Source of the DNA: Rhodohalobacter halophilus
GTDB taxonomy: Bacteria > Bacteroidota > Rhodothermia > Balneolales > Balneolaceae
NCBI RefSeq assembly: GCF_001715195.1
Contig: NZ_MDWE01000007.1
Coordinates: 1-64,000, forward strand
Length of the DNA: 64,000 nucleotides
Direction of reading: 5' to 3'
This document shows positions 15,854 to 41,996 of this stretch, piece after piece (the first letter of the stretch is position 1; every line of letters begins with the position of its first letter). The notes beneath the pieces were generated by a model. The model worked only from the letters and a program-made list of their open reading frames with translations, had not been told where the DNA came from and made no database searches. The position numbers were made by a program, and so were the translations under genes.

Positions 15854-17143
15854 TTACTTTTCAAACTTCATCTTCATCAGTGCGGCCGCAATTTCTATCG
15901 GTGTGAAATCTCCTTCAGCAAGCGGCTCCAGCTGATCGATATATTCACGCAAGCCACCTTTTTGAAGTGTATCCACAATCTCATCCAGATGCGACTCCAT
16001 CTTCGACATTTGTACCTCTTTGGATGATGGCATTGGCAACGGCATCAGCTTGGTGCCAATAATTTTTTCAATAAAACGGATGCTCTTGCGCTTACGTCCG
16101 GTAGAGAATGTGATTGCAAGTCCGGACTTTCCTGCTCGTCCGGTACGCCCGATCCGGTGTACATAGAACTCTGGGTCCTGAGGGATATCATAGTTAAAAA
16201 CTACATCGATATCGTCTACATCGAGACCGCGGGCGGCAACGTCGGTGGCTACCAGAATGTCAATCTTTCCATTTCTGAATTTGTTCATCACCTTATCACG
16301 AATGTTCTGGCGCATGTCTCCATGGAGAGCATCTGCTGAAAATCCGCGAGCCTGGAACTCCTCAACAAGGGAGTCGCAACGCCGTTTCGTATTTGAAAAG
16401 ACAAGGGTGAGTCGGGCATCGGTCATGTCAATGACGCGGGAAATTGCTTCAACCCGCATCGAGTCGCGGACTTCCATTACATACTGCTCAATTCCTTCAG
16501 CTGTTTGAGCGCGACCTTCAACTTTAATTGTCTTGGGGTTGTCCATCCAGCGGTCCATGATCTTTTTGATCGCCTTTGGCATGGTGGCCGAAAACATAAT
16601 AGTCTGTGATTTTCCTTTACTGTAGCTGAGAATTTCTTCGAGATCTTCACGAAAACCCATATTGAGCATTTCATCTGCTTCATCTAGAACTACCATTTCC
16701 AGGGCACCCAGTTTTAGCGTTCCACGCTTTAGGTGGTCAATCACACGGCCGGGAGTTCCAACTACAATTTGTGCGCCTTTTTTCAGCGCTTTGAGCTGCC
16801 GGCTGATCGGCTGTCCGCCATATACCGGTACAGTAAATACACCATTTACGTGTTTGGCAAGTTTAATAAGTTCGCCTGTTACCTGAATTGCCAGCTCGCG
16901 CGTGGGTGTTAAAATTAAAACACTGGGGGATTTGGATCCTTTATTGGCCATTTGAATAGCCGGAATTCCAAATGCGGCCGTTTTACCGGTTCCGGTTTGT
17001 GCCTGACCGACCAGATCGGTACCTGTAAAAATTTGAGGAATACATTTTTCCTGAATGGAAGTTGGGGCCTCAAAGCCCATGTCGTTGATAGCTTTAAGAA
17101 TTTCAGGCTGAATGTTCAGCGTTGAGAATGAAGATTGATTCAT
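15854..17143 (-). CDS. DEAD-box ATP-dependent RNA helicase
   Basis: A 429-residue active-looking DEAD-box helicase that remodels RNA or ribosome assembly intermediates. The Q-motif and Walker A (GQAQTGTGKT, 46-55), DEAD box (VLDEADEMLNMGF), SAT motif (FSATMP) and motif VI (HRIGRTGRAG) are all intact. The frame is open to 17233, but the extra N-terminal residues do not resemble the family; ATG at 17143 puts the phenylalanine of the Q-motif at its normal place. A roughly 500-bp gene-free region lies upstream, so a long 5' leader, as in cold-induced helicase genes, is possible. It provides an internal reference for the inactive relative at 40552. Confidence 0.95.
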   Translation of the reverse strand: MNQSSFSTLNIQPEILKAINDMGFEAPTSIQEKCIPQIFTGTDLVGQAQTGTGKTAAFGIPAIQMANKGSKSPSVLILTPTRELAIQVTGELIKLAKHVNGVFTVPVYGGQPISRQLKALKKGAQIVVGTPGRVIDHLKRGTLKLGALEMVVLDEADEMLNMGFREDLEEILSYSKGKSQTIMFSATMPKAIKKIMDRWMDNPKTIKVEGRAQTAEGIEQYVMEVRDSMRVEAISRVIDMTDARLTLVFSNTKRRCDSLVEEFQARGFSADALHGDMRQNIRDKVMNKFRNGKIDILVATDVAARGLDVDDIDVVFNYDIPQDPEFYVHRIGRTGRAGKSGLAITFSTGRKRKSIRFIEKIIGTKLMPLPMPSSKEVQMSKMESHLDEIVDTLQKGGLREYIDQLEPLAEGDFTPIEIAAALMKMKFEK

Positions 17144-37973: not shown

Positions 37974-38906
37974 ATGGAACCGGAAATAAAAGACAGCCTA
38001 ACCGATTTATTCAATCAAATTCCTGCAAACTTCACACATGTATTGGAGTCTGTTGCAGTAATTGTCATCCTGGTGTTAGTTCATATCATCATTAAAATGA
38101 TTGTAAGACGCCAAACGGAAGATGAAGAGATCCGTTACAAGTGGCGGAAAAATCTTGCGTATGTTTTAAGTTTTTTTGGGTTTATTATCATCGGTCGAAT
38201 CTGGTTTGAGGGGGTAGGTTCACTTGCAACTTTTTTGGGACTACTTTCTGCAGGCTTGGCTATTGCACTTCGTGATCCCGTTACAGACATGGCCGGCTGG
38301 GTATTTTTGATTTGGAGGAAGCCTTTTCAAGTTGGTGATCGTATTCAAATCGGGGATACAAAAGGGGATGTGATTGATATTCGATTTTTTAAGTTTTCAG
38401 TTCTCGAAATTGGGAATTGGGTCAGTGCAGACCAGAGTACGGGACGGGTTATTCACATGCCAAATCACCTGGTGCTCAGGGAGTCAATCGCTAATTATAC
38501 CAGTGATTTTGATTTTCTATGGAATGAAATCCCAATTGTTGTAACCTTCGAGAGTGATTGGAGAAAGGCGAAAGAGATTTTGGTGGAAATTGCCCAGAAC
38601 CATATGGAAGACTACGTTTTGGATGCAGAAGAGCAGGTGCGTCGTGCCACTAAGTCTTACCTTATACGCTACAAAAACCTAACCCCTATTGTATATACAG
38701 AGGTGGTTGAGGTTGGCGTGAAACTGACTATCCGGCATCTTTCGCACGCCAGAAAGCGAAGAGGAATCAATCAGATTATGTGGGAAGATATTCTGGACCG
38801 TTTTGAACGGGAGAATACCATCAATTTTGCCTACAATACGCTGCGAATTTACCAAAATCAGATTGAGGGGAAATCGGGCCTTAAACCTCCTTCTACTTCG
38901 GAATAG
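37974..38906 (+). CDS. MscS family mechanosensitive ion channel
   Basis: A 310-residue membrane channel protein that opens under membrane tension, protecting against osmotic downshock. Two N-terminal helices (about 20-42 and 56-76) precede the pore-lining TM3 rich in Gly and Ala (LATFLGLLSAGLAIALRD), followed by the beta domain (FLIWRKPFQVGDRIQIG) and the conserved VIHMPNHLVL segment. The C-terminal cytoplasmic domain ends in a charged tail. The gene is convergent with the SRAP-like gene, with 14 nt overlap of the two 3' ends. Confidence 0.92.
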   Translation: MEPEIKDSLTDLFNQIPANFTHVLESVAVIVILVLVHIIIKMIVRRQTEDEEIRYKWRKNLAYVLSFFGFIIIGRIWFEGVGSLATFLGLLSAGLAIALRDPVTDMAGWVFLIWRKPFQVGDRIQIGDTKGDVIDIRFFKFSVLEIGNWVSADQSTGRVIHMPNHLVLRESIANYTSDFDFLWNEIPIVVTFESDWRKAKEILVEIAQNHMEDYVLDAEEQVRRATKSYLIRYKNLTPIVYTEVVEVGVKLTIRHLSHARKRRGINQIMWEDILDRFERENTINFAYNTLRIYQNQIEGKSGLKPPSTSE

Positions 38907-39510
38907 GTTGAACCAGCTCTTCGCTGTTATTGGACGGATCATTGACCTCTTCACTCACCCGCGTCACCGATAGATCCGTTAAGAGAAACAGATTTTTCGC
39001 TCTGTTTAGAATATTATCCACCTCTTCGGACTGATTGAGCCAGAGGTGTGAAAGCTCCCGGTCGAAAAGAAGAGGCATTGTTTCCGACATTGGTTTAATC
39101 AGCACGTTGGCTTCGGTAGTGATGATTTGAAAATACTCCTCTTTTGAGTGAAGCAACCCTGCAGCAACCATTAGTGGACCACTCAGCATTCTGATGAAAA
39201 AGGGACTCCCTTCTTCTTTGTCATCTTTCCATATATAAAATCCGCTGAGCGGTATGGCACAGGGTATCCATTTTTTGTCGTCTGTTAAGGCTGCGGCTTC
39301 ATTTACAGGAACAGTGGTGTTTCTACTATTCTCATCACCCCAGCGTATTCGGTCCAGAGAAAGTGTGTCTCCGTTTTTAAAAACGACTGGAATGTGCTGC
39401 CCGGGTGTTAAGTTGTAGTGAGGTTCAAATATTTGTTCTCTTTTAGATTGAATGTTGAAGTAATTTTCAATGGGTTCTTTTCCCGGAAAAAAAGCAACGC
39501 GTTTAGGCAT
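38893..39510 (-). CDS. SRAP (HMCES/YedK-like) domain protein lacking the catalytic residues
   Basis: A 205-residue SRAP-fold protein. Family landmarks are present: YNLTPGQHIPVV at 32-43, RIRWG at 54-58, IPLSGFYIWK at 86-95, AAGLL near 116-120 and ITTEAN at 130-135. In active SRAP proteins the initiator Met is followed by Cys2 (MCGR), which crosslinks to abasic sites; here the start is MPKR. The catalytic Glu of GFYEW is Ile93, and the His of IHxRMP is Ser142 (MSETMP). Only an Asn candidate (Asn70) remains. It may bind single-stranded or damaged DNA without crosslinking, or have another role. The start is clear, with no in-frame MC upstream. Confidence 0.8.
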   Translation of the reverse strand: MPKRVAFFPGKEPIENYFNIQSKREQIFEPHYNLTPGQHIPVVFKNGDTLSLDRIRWGDENSRNTTVPVNEAAALTDDKKWIPCAIPLSGFYIWKDDKEEGSPFFIRMLSGPLMVAAGLLHSKEEYFQIITTEANVLIKPMSETMPLLFDRELSHLWLNQSEEVDNILNRAKNLFLLTDLSVTRVSEEVNDPSNNSEELVQPIPK

Positions 39511-39588
39511 AATTTGTAAATTTGTGTATTGTTCGCTTGTCAGATACTACTATTACGAAACAGACTATTTAATAATATCCGTTCAATT

Positions 39589-40449
39589 GTGAAAATTCTC
39601 TTTTACAACAGCTACGAAAACAGGCTTCGCTCGTTCTGGAGAATTTTAATTATAACATCCATTCTGCTTCTGTCTATAACTCTATTTGGGTTAAGTGGTT
39701 TCGGCGGTTACGGCTTTACAATAGTGATGGCTGTTGTTATGGCCGCATTGTTGTGGCTCGGAGCTCATAAAATCGATTACCGACCGGTATCTCAGTACGG
39801 GCTGAAGTTTTCCGGAAAATGGTTCTGTGATTTCCTGGCCGGGAACCTGCTGGCCGCTCTGGCTATGGGCGGAATTGTTCTGATTCATATTGGAATGGGC
39901 TGGATCGACATCAATCCGGAAAATTTTAGCCAGCTAGGGCATCAATTCTATTTGGGGCTAACCACCACACTCATAATTATGATGGCAGTGAGTTTCTGGG
40001 AAGAGACGTACTTTAGAAGCTATTTGATTAAAAATCTGGAAGAGGGGCTCCATTTTAAGAAGACGGGCAAATCGATGGCGGTAATAGGAGCTGTTATTCT
40101 TTCATCAGCAATTTTTGGGATGACTCATCTTGGAAACCCAAATGCAACGTGGATTTCTACATTAAATATTTCAATTGCTGGAATGGTTTTCGCATATCCT
40201 TATATTATAACAAAGAGTATTGCCATTCCACTTGGAATGCATCTGTCTTGGAATTATTTTCAAGGCGCGGTTTTTGGATTACCCGTCAGCGGCAACCAAT
40301 TTGAACATATGCTCATGGTTGCTGAAACTACAGGCCCGGAAACGTTCACAGGGGGTGATTTTGGCCCGGAAGCGGGTGCCGCCGGTTTACTGGGGCTTAT
40401 GATACTACTGACACTAAATGAGGTCTATATTACCGTGTTTCGCAAGTGA
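39589..40449 (+). CDS. CPBP family intramembrane metalloprotease
   Basis: A 286-residue polytopic protein of the CAAX-protease/bacteriocin-processing (CPBP, Abi) family. The motifs are EETYFR at 138-143, the FxxxH motif FGMTH ending at His180, and HLSWN at 218-222, all in membrane helices as expected for the glutamate/histidine metal site. A TTG at 39529 in the same frame could extend it by 20 residues, but the GTG at 39589 gives a more typical start. Targets are unknown; relatives process prenylated proteins or regulate membrane proteins. Divergent from the SRAP-like gene. Confidence 0.85.
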   Translation: MKILFYNSYENRLRSFWRILIITSILLLSITLFGLSGFGGYGFTIVMAVVMAALLWLGAHKIDYRPVSQYGLKFSGKWFCDFLAGNLLAALAMGGIVLIHIGMGWIDINPENFSQLGHQFYLGLTTTLIIMMAVSFWEETYFRSYLIKNLEEGLHFKKTGKSMAVIGAVILSSAIFGMTHLGNPNATWISTLNISIAGMVFAYPYIITKSIAIPLGMHLSWNYFQGAVFGLPVSGNQFEHMLMVAETTGPETFTGGDFGPEAGAAGLLGLMILLTLNEVYITVFRK

Positions 40450-40551
40450 CGAATAAAATGGCTGCCGACTGAGAAGGCTGAGCCATATGCCGGAAAACTG
40501 GTACCGGCAATTTTGAATTGAAATGTTGACTAAATTAATGAGGATAAGACG

Positions 40552-41934
40552 TTGTCGTTTAATCAATTTCGACTAAGTTCCGATATTTTAAAGGGGTTGA
40601 AGGATGTTAAAATTGAAAGCCCCTCACCGTTACAAAAGAAAATCTACAAAGCTGTTCAAGAAGGGTCCGATCTAGTAATAAATACGACCATAGAGGATAA
40701 ACCTGAGATTGGATATCTGCTCAATCTGCTGAATGAGATTTCTAAAACAGACCGAAGGCAGGGTACGAAAGGTATCATACTGGCACCGGATGAAGAACGT
40801 GCTAAGTTTCTGGATGAATGGATCTGGGCAATCGGATATCATGCATCGATCGAAAGTGCGTGCATAACCGGTAAAGGCGATCCAAAGGAGCAGCTTCAAT
40901 CTCTATCGGCAGGGCCAGTTGTGGTTGTGGCCACGCCTAAGGAGTTTTCAGAAGTTCTTGAAGAAGGGAAAATGATCTTTCGAGAGGTGCAGCAGTTAAT
41001 TGTGGATCAGGCCGAGAAGGTTGAAGACTGGGATGCTGTTGAGGCTATTTCAACCCGGGTGATCAGTAAATGCCAAAGAGTTTTTACCGCTGCAAAAGAC
41101 AGTAAGGAGCTGAGAGAAGCAGAAGGGAAGTTACTCACTGACCCTCAACTTGTAACTCTCGCAAAAAAAACATCCGCCAAAAAGAAGGAAGCGGAGCCGG
41201 AGATCACAAAGGATCTGACGCAGTACTATATAAACGTGCCGCCACGGTCCAAAATCTCTACACTTATGGCGCACCTGGATAAGAATAAAACCGACACGGT
41301 GGTCATCTTTACCGCGTCTCGCCGTACGGCCGATCGCCTCTATAAAATTCTGCGAAAGAGTAATCGACGGGCTGTAAGTGTACACGATCAATTAAACAAA
41401 GAGACATTTGAAGAGCGGTTTAACCGGTTTACTACGGGGGATGTTCAGCATCTGATCGTCGGGGATATGTCTGCAAATGACCTTCCACTTGAGCATGCCA
41501 CACAGGTTATCAATTACGATGTGCCGGAAGATGTGAATGAGTATAAACTGCGGGCCGAGCTGGTTGGAGACGGCAAAGCTACCCGAATTCTCTCACTTGT
41601 TTCAAAACAGGATCGTGAGGATATCAACGAGATTTGTAAATCTCTGGGGTACGCCCCTGAGGAAGTTCCGCTGCCAAAAAGTGTTAAAGAGAAAGTCTCT
41701 TCAAATAAAAAAGGCAAAGGTAAACGTAATCAGAGAGGACGAGGTAAGTCGAAATCCCGAAGCAGTAAAGGCAGCAAAGGGCGTGGCCGACCTAAAAGAA
41801 GTAAGAAGGATCAGGGCGGAAAACATCACGGTTTGCCAAGGCCTACGTTCGATCAGCTTGAGGGCGGGCGTACCGGCAAGAAAAAAGAGGAGAAGAAGGG
41901 CGTTGTTGGTTTTTTCAAGAAACTCTTTTCATAA
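40552..41934 (+). CDS. DEAD-box-derived protein without ATPase motifs (pseudo-helicase) with basic C-terminal tail
   Basis: A 460-residue protein whose two RecA-like domains follow DEAD-box order but with key motifs lost. The Q-motif is recognisable (PSPLQKKIYKAVQEGSDLV, 24-42). The Walker A site that should follow reads INTTIEDKPEIG with no GKT; motif Ia is APDEERA; motif II is VDQAEK (151-156) instead of DEAD; motif III is TAAKD; motif VI, HRIGRTGR in the active relative at 15854, is YKLRAELVGDG. Motif IV-like VVIFTASRRTADRL and the V region VGDMSANDL survive. Residues 380-450 are Lys/Arg/Gly/Ser-rich with RGRG, likely RNA-binding. The start is TTG at 40552 with AGGA upstream. Probably an RNA-binding scaffold, not a motor. 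Confidence 0.8.
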   Translation: MSFNQFRLSSDILKGLKDVKIESPSPLQKKIYKAVQEGSDLVINTTIEDKPEIGYLLNLLNEISKTDRRQGTKGIILAPDEERAKFLDEWIWAIGYHASIESACITGKGDPKEQLQSLSAGPVVVVATPKEFSEVLEEGKMIFREVQQLIVDQAEKVEDWDAVEAISTRVISKCQRVFTAAKDSKELREAEGKLLTDPQLVTLAKKTSAKKKEAEPEITKDLTQYYINVPPRSKISTLMAHLDKNKTDTVVIFTASRRTADRLYKILRKSNRRAVSVHDQLNKETFEERFNRFTTGDVQHLIVGDMSANDLPLEHATQVINYDVPEDVNEYKLRAELVGDGKATRILSLVSKQDREDINEICKSLGYAPEEVPLPKSVKEKVSSNKKGKGKRNQRGRGKSKSRSSKGSKGRGRPKRSKKDQGGKHHGLPRPTFDQLEGGRTGKKKEEKKGVVGFFKKLFS

Positions 41935-41956: not shown

Positions 41957-41996
41957 AAAAGACGATTTGGATTCGGTTCCGAATCGTCTTTTTTTA
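41957..41996 (+). terminator. Intrinsic terminator of the pseudo-helicase gene
   Basis: AAAAGACGATT pairs with AATCGTCTTTT, and the loop contains a second, alternative palindrome (ATTCGGTTCCGAAT). A T-run follows on the plus strand and overlaps the stop of the convergent symporter gene. Confidence 0.8.

Follow-up and report, generated by a model that had tools for sequence, protein, structure and literature searches.

How does a helicase gene keep its reading frame open once the residues that drive the motor are gone, and what might its product still do? The question is raised by a gene of Rhodohalobacter halophilus that lies in the 64,000-nucleotide stretch of contig NZ_MDWE01000007.1 analysed here (the window; Table 1). 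A preliminary description, made from the letters alone, took the product for a DEAD-box-derived protein that had lost its ATPase motifs, was held in frame by selection and served as an RNA-binding scaffold or regulator, perhaps of an active paralogue in the same window.

Table 1. Positions in the window of the pseudohelicase gene, its parts and its neighbours
Feature	Coordinates	Strand	Remarks
Intact CshA-like DEAD-box helicase	15854..17131	-	Distant active paralogue; about 15854-17143 in the preliminary description
MscS-type channel	37974..38906	+	Conserved neighbour
SRAP protein	38893..39510	-	Conserved neighbour
CPBP (Rce1-like) membrane protease	39529..40449	+	Conserved upstream neighbour
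Shine-Dalgarno GAGGA	40540..40544	+	Upstream of the pseudohelicase TTG start
Pseudohelicase gene	40552..41934	+	460 aa; TTG start; stop ends at 41934
RecA-like domain 1 (residues 1-203)	40552..41160	+	Q-motif F3/Q28 retained; weaker constraint, pN/pS 0.21
Former Walker A (motif I)	40684..40707	+	Reads TTIEDKPE
Former motif Ia PTRELA	40786..40803	+	Reads PDEERA
Motif Ib	40933..40944	+	TPKE; [TN]P in nearly all orthologues, Arg in 51/70
Former motif II DEAD	41005..41016	+	Reads DQAE; DEAH in one orthologue group, without Walker A
Former motif III FSATMP	41086..41103	+	Reads TAAKDS (SAT to AAK)
RecA-like domain 2 (residues 222-376)	41215..41679	+	Most constrained part, pN/pS 0.054
Motif IV region VIFTAS	41302..41319	+	Retained
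Former motif V ATDVLARGID	41458..41487	+	Reads VGDMSANDLP
Motif Va INYDVP	41509..41526	+	Retained
Former motif VI HRIGRTGR	41548..41571	+	Reads LRAELVGD; family mostly [YL]RA[ED]LVG
Basic low-complexity linker	41680..41829	+	K/R/G/S-rich, poorly conserved
Near-invariant tail motif LPRPTFDQLEGGRTG	41833..41877	+	Recognisable form in 70/72 orthologues
C-terminal amphipathic helix GVVGFFKKLFS	41899..41931	+	Resembles the end helix of the active RhlE-like paralogue and that of MinD
Terminator-like hairpin with T run	41957..41992	+	3' of the pseudohelicase stop

A DEAD-box core and its vestigial motifs

Both Pfam domains of a DEAD-box protein score above their cut-offs in the product (Helicase_C, 48 bits; DEAD, 43 bits), far lower than in the intact CshA-like copy of the window (121.5 and 172.7 bits, respectively). 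With NCBIfam, the protein stays far under all helicase equivalog cut-offs, the top model being CshA (134 vs. 646), and CshA is also its nearest solved relative by sequence (5ivl, E 7.6e-25). No Rfam family was found in the 64-kb window. Two AF2 models each comprise two confidently predicted RecA domains followed by a disordered linker and tail. The model built on a deeper alignment has a pLDDT of 83.9, with both RecA domains mostly above 90, and adds a low-confidence C-terminal helix (residues 451-459). Across the models pTM is 0.46-0.48, so the models do not fix how the domains are arranged. VIA-align superimposes the first model on eIF4AIII (4c9b; Z 30.6, 360 residues, 3.6 A) and on the CshA N-domain (Z 29.0, 198 residues, 1.6 A). 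Pfam, the AF2 models and the VIA matches thus agree on the two-RecA-domain fold, whose landmarks the preliminary description had recognised, and the helicase structure that a pseudohelicase is held to retain (PMC9539457) is present in the predicted models.

Which residues went, and which stayed? The attributes of an active DEAD-box enzyme, namely the Walker A GKT, a DEAD motif II and the arginine fingers of motif VI, are absent, and the QxxR motif reads KETF. What remains is the Q-motif (F3 and Q28), the Pro of motif Ib, the Phe of motif IV, the N-Y-D-x-P of motif Va and the first Arg of motif VI; the preliminary description was right about the Q-motif, motif IV and the Va part of the V region, but motif V proper is lost (Table 1). 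A census of 70 distinct dead orthologues, aligned with 39 active RhlE-like copies, extends this picture to the family. The active copies are invariant (39/39) at all counted positions bar a few non-catalytic ones. In the dead copies, Walker A has Thr in 0/70 and Lys in 9/70 by alignment only, with GKT in none and a two-residue gap in the P-loop of many; motif Ia keeps its Arg in 1/70, GG is found in 0/70, the SAT residues of motif III are scattered, the Arg of motif IVa persists in 9/70, and motif V has Thr and Arg in 0/70 and Gly in 1/70. Motif VI keeps its first Arg in 65/70 and its arginine fingers in 2/70 and 3/70. By contrast with these losses, the Pro residues of motifs Ib and Va are universal (70/70 each), the Ib Arg is found in 51/70, and the Q-motif Phe, the Q-motif Gln and the motif IV Phe are each present in 66/70. 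Motif II is intermediate: Asp1 in 64/70, Glu2 in 28/70 and Asp4 in 13/70, with an exact DEAD in 1/56 and DEAH in 22/56, so that some genera carry DEAH with no P-loop to accompany it.

The recurrence of the same losses in 70 orthologues places them far beyond chance, and their presence in 70/70 with differing remnants implies that the motifs were lost before the Balneolaceae radiated. Assembly or sequencing artefact, considered as a cause, was ruled out by about 70 distinct open frames with identical losses. On Pfam and residue-level evidence alike, the product is a DEAD-box pseudohelicase, as the preliminary description had proposed, with the vestigial, non-functional motifs by which such proteins are recognised (PMC9539457). 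A diverged yet active ATPase with unconventional motifs could be argued from the DEAH tetrads, but it is scarcely credible with no Walker A Thr, a Lys that is placed by alignment only in 9/70 and arginine fingers in at most 3/70. A milder variant, in which the Q-motif Phe and Gln hold an adenine nucleotide that is not hydrolysed and so switch a scaffold, would account for the retention of F3 and Q28 (66/70 each) and for DEAH in part of the family; it is nevertheless quite improbable, because the P-loop varies in length and has lost its Thr and the arginine fingers are missing, and the Q-motif residues are perhaps kept for fold stability. The losses at Ia, GG, IVa and V also remove RNA-contact residues; RNA binding across the RecA domains may therefore be gone, in which case it would fall to the basic linker alone.

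Ancestry, locus and spread

From which helicase did this protein arise? It matches three other DEAD-box proteins of its own genome, of which the closest active one is an RhlE-like helicase on another contig (G000:C8:110675-112267, 28% identity; the C8 copy), itself with relatives in 85/85 genomes of the order searched with it. In a FastTree phylogeny of 108 proteins, the dead family is a single clade (1.0), sister to the active RhlE-like clade of Balneolaceae (0.969), and the two are nested within an order-wide active clade; the dead branch is long (1.09). An IQ-TREE analysis of 38 proteins and 309 columns, with the motif columns removed, yields UFBoot values of 98 for the dead clade and 100 for the dead and family-active clades together. 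Were length alone to decide its placement, such a branch should fall at the base of the tree, which it does not. Both trees, as well as the gene order around the active gene in a sister family, support descent from the RhlE-like subfamily of the order. The active paralogue in the window, to which the preliminary description had turned as the intact counterpart and possible target of regulation, is indeed an intact CshA-like helicase, but a distant one; the C8 copy is the closer relative and the tree sister, and the proposed regulation of the CshA-like protein is not supported in the form given.

The position of the gene is informative too. Its usual surroundings in Balneolaceae, SecG-MscS-SRAP-CPBP-[pseudohelicase], are kept family-wide (37974-40449 in the window from MscS to CPBP), and the same order is found in the sister family beside an active helicase: in five genomes (L157, L158, L163, L164 and L165), an intact helicase occupies the slot. 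Hence, the ancestral position is held by the dead copy, and the working copy of the family lies elsewhere. In a genome of another family (G043), this slot does not hold the active gene. Sequence comparison thus shows that the RhlE-like gene was duplicated in the Balneolaceae stem; ATPase residues and most of those in the RNA clamp disappeared from the copy at the ancestral locus, with the copy elsewhere staying intact.

The start codon, too, may predate this event. Translation of the pseudohelicase begins at a TTG preceded by GAGGATAAGACG; dead orthologues start with TTG in 63/64 cases (GTG in 1/64), and their active twins across the order (L099-L143) have TTG at the aligned position in 38/39. 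In several of these genes an in-frame stop just upstream leaves no alternative start. A GAGG/AGGT-like ribosome site precedes the TTG in the dead genes and is missing from the active twins. Retention of TTG suggests translational control older than the duplication.

How widely is the dead copy kept? An 18-row profile was run against 103 genomes of the order (E <= 1e-88) and 392 genomes across the phylum (E <= 1e-80). It matches 67/103 genomes of the order, all of them Balneolaceae; at these thresholds, the order's remaining families have no orthologue, and among the 392 phylum-wide genomes none outside Balneolaceae has one. A pattern-based scan of public genome contigs returned two close relatives only. 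Inspection of the locus in the ten profile-negative genomes of the family adds an intact, very divergent copy in five (G090, G102, G103, G104 and G105) and a copy truncated by a contig end in G002; in G099 the copy (L160 9529-10984) is eroded by many frame-breaking indels between intact flanking genes, and in G031 (partly masked), G100 and G101 the gene is gone, with the CPBP gene adjoining the next one. Together, profile matches and locus inspection place the pseudohelicase in about 73 of the 77 Balneolaceae genomes. The preliminary description had regarded a lack of orthologues or frame erosion in relatives as fatal to its case: orthologues abound, and erosion does occur, in G099, but the frames are open in most of the family. 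Six genomes of one small-genome genus account for three absences (G031, G100 and G101), the eroded copy (G099) and two retained ones (G102 and G103); hence, the protein is not indispensable.

Several sequences around this family deserve mention in their own right. Contig LKNA01000030.1 (L034) is probably mislabelled: its title says Chitinophagaceae, but its gene is 82% identical to that of the window and the gene order is shared. The G091 orthologue (L054 6200-6575) shifts frame ahead of the conserved tail and runs into unrelated residues; the tail may truly be lost, or the assembly may be at fault. The active RhlE-like helicase of G100, a genome without the dead copy as well, is divided between two overlapping frames (L178 1040-2828), by frameshift or assembly error.

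Selection and the C-terminal tail

If the motor is gone, what is selection acting on? Between close pairs with unsaturated sites, dN/dS of the dead orthologues is 0.027-0.164, overlapping that of the active twins (0.043-0.098). A simple counting method that pools ten pairs gives a pN/pS of 0.208 in RecA1, 0.054 in RecA2 and 0.171 in the tail, each far from 1. Between genera, identity of the dead copies is lowest in the linker (26%), followed by RecA1 (39%), RecA2 and the C-terminal helix (58% each) and the LPRP motif (70%); the active twin is under like constraint in its two RecA domains (RecA1, 70%; RecA2, 65%). Relaxation of RecA1 relative to RecA2 in the dead copy fits a protein that has lost motor duty and retained a function of RecA2 and the tail. 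These substitution patterns indicate that purifying selection keeps the frame of the dead copy open and is strongest on RecA2, the LPRP motif and the C-terminal amphipathic helix; the claim of an intact frame under selection (dN/dS 0.03-0.16; pN/pS 0.054-0.21 by domain) is thereby upheld, and such selection implies that the pseudohelicase has a function. Could the duplicate instead be drifting toward a pseudogene? The eroded copy of G099, the three genomes without the gene (G031, G100 and G101) and the more relaxed RecA1 would fit ongoing decay, which is all the same very unlikely for a gene that is kept in about 73/77 genomes of its family, with frames open at ~40% identity across genera, pN/pS of 0.05-0.21 in all parts, and a conserved start codon, ribosome site and tail motifs.

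The tail had been described as Lys/Arg/Gly-rich; this is true of the linker, but two strongly conserved motifs, LPRP and the C-terminal helix, follow it. The former has the consensus LPRP[TS][FY][DE]xLxGG[RK]xG (70/72 orthologues); the active twin has at best another form, LPPVIEKAVERNKR. A search with the tail peptide matched no chain among solved structures and, in the organism's own genome, found the pseudohelicase alone (E up to 10). The extreme C-terminus of the dead orthologues is near-universally of the type G-x-x-G-[FW]-x-K-K-L-F, which in the window protein is EEKKGVVGFFKKLFS, and even the most degenerate orthologues keep this helix. Dead orthologues from two small-genome genera (L161, L162 and L177) have lost most RecA2 signatures as well and kept LPRxxFDxLxGG and the C-terminal helix; in these, the tail has outlasted the core.

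A comparable helix closes the active twins, with the sequence KG[VI]WG[IL]IKS[FL]IPK, or KKGIWGKLKNLF in another family. Its mean hydrophobic moment is 0.65, and that of the dead copies is 0.69; position permutations average 0.33 and 0.34, respectively, and reach the observed moment in 1.1% and 1.8% of cases. With a mean net charge of +1.6, the C-terminal helix is a basic amphipathic one of the MinD type; E. coli MinD itself ends in EEEKKGFLKRLFGG. The MinD helix is described as a transplantable lipid-binding element (Szeto, 2003, in the account given by PMC12594526), and the helices that target MinD and RNase E to the membrane (PMC12594526) resemble that of the pseudohelicase in being short and amphipathic and, in MinD, in lying at the extreme C-terminus. 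For the pseudohelicase family membrane targeting would follow by analogy only, and the MinD-like helix is best taken as a lead in that direction. Alternatively, the helix may dock on a protein, such as RNase E/G or the ribosome, which would leave a scaffold role otherwise unchanged: the genome encodes RNase E/G (488 bits) and has no RNase Y over the cut-off, and the glycines at fixed helix positions suggest a specific contact. We find this somewhat doubtful, since the high hydrophobic moment, the positive charge and the MinD-like sequence fit lipid binding. Active RhlE-like helicases from other families of the order (L131, L137 and L138) have a short, basic and amphipathic helix at the C-terminus, too; membrane-tethered DEAD-box helicases may thus be general in the order.

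A possible scaffold beside an active twin

How could a helicase without a motor be of use? RecA2 is a frequent partner-docking domain in DEAD-box proteins. The best explanation of the whole, which we judge evenly balanced between right and wrong, is that a duplicated RhlE-like helicase lost its motor and became a constitutive scaffold beside its active twin. Having no ATP-driven cycle of opening and closing, the pseudohelicase would (i) dock a partner protein through RecA2; (ii) hold RNA, with no sequence specificity, through the basic linker; and (iii) use its C-terminal helix to reach the place where the active twin is located, probably at the membrane's inner face. Its task at that site would be to recruit the RhlE-like twin or tune its activity, or to do the same for clients, for instance RNase E/G or intermediates of ribosome assembly; one may conceive of a helicase and an RNase being assembled together at the membrane. 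The more specific proposal of a paired bacterial system, in which the DEAD-box pseudohelicase at the ancestral locus is a membrane-tethered, ATP-independent RNA scaffold or regulator beside a relocated active copy, is tentative and leans toward the doubtful side. The opposite relation between the twins is also imaginable: the dead copy would compete with the active one for a shared tail-binding site, on the membrane or a partner, as a dominant negative that limits the helicase. The similar C-terminal helices of the two and the strong constraint on RecA2 would suit such an antagonist, but the near-invariant LPRP motif is private to the dead family and implies that the tails are not fully interchangeable, which makes antagonism rather unlikely.

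The scaffold reading can be set against known systems. The C8 helicase shares with the pseudohelicase its domain layout, a long tail with a similar amphipathic end helix and the aligned TTG, besides being its sister in the trees; it differs in having intact key motifs (39/39), in lacking the LPRPxYDxLxGGRxG form and, at 28% identity, in most of its residues. Utp25/Def, a eukaryotic SSU-processome factor, is likewise DEAD-box-derived, with two RecA-like domains and vestigial motifs, and for it, too, duplication and divergence and a helicase-cofactor or scaffold role have been proposed (PMC9539457). It differs as a ribosome-assembly factor of eukaryotes that has an N-terminal disordered region, is essential and has been tested by mutation (PMC9539457); the Balneolaceae protein, described here from its sequence, is bacterial and has a C-terminal basic tail and helix. 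Utp25 was the second proposed pseudohelicase, after Deinococcus radiodurans PriA (PMC9539457). PriA (PMC4504706) is a bacterial helicase that has lost its motor and, as summarised in PMC9539457, still binds ssDNA, forks and DnaB; as far as these accounts go, it acts in DNA replication restart, belongs to another helicase family and has no active twin beside it.

Pseudoenzymes are well studied among kinases; the literature searched holds two pseudohelicases, a eukaryotic DEAD-box protein and a bacterial DNA helicase. In the open-access literature, we found neither a bacterial DEAD-box pseudohelicase nor a report that joins Balneolaceae with DEAD-box proteins. The family described here offers an evolutionary series within bacteria: a sister family whose gene at this locus is intact, a dead copy in ~73 genomes, partial retention as DEAH, and loss in small genomes. 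It lets one ask which DEAD-box surfaces still count once the motor has gone, with RecA2 and the tail as candidates, and whether helicases in these bacteria are tethered to the membrane.
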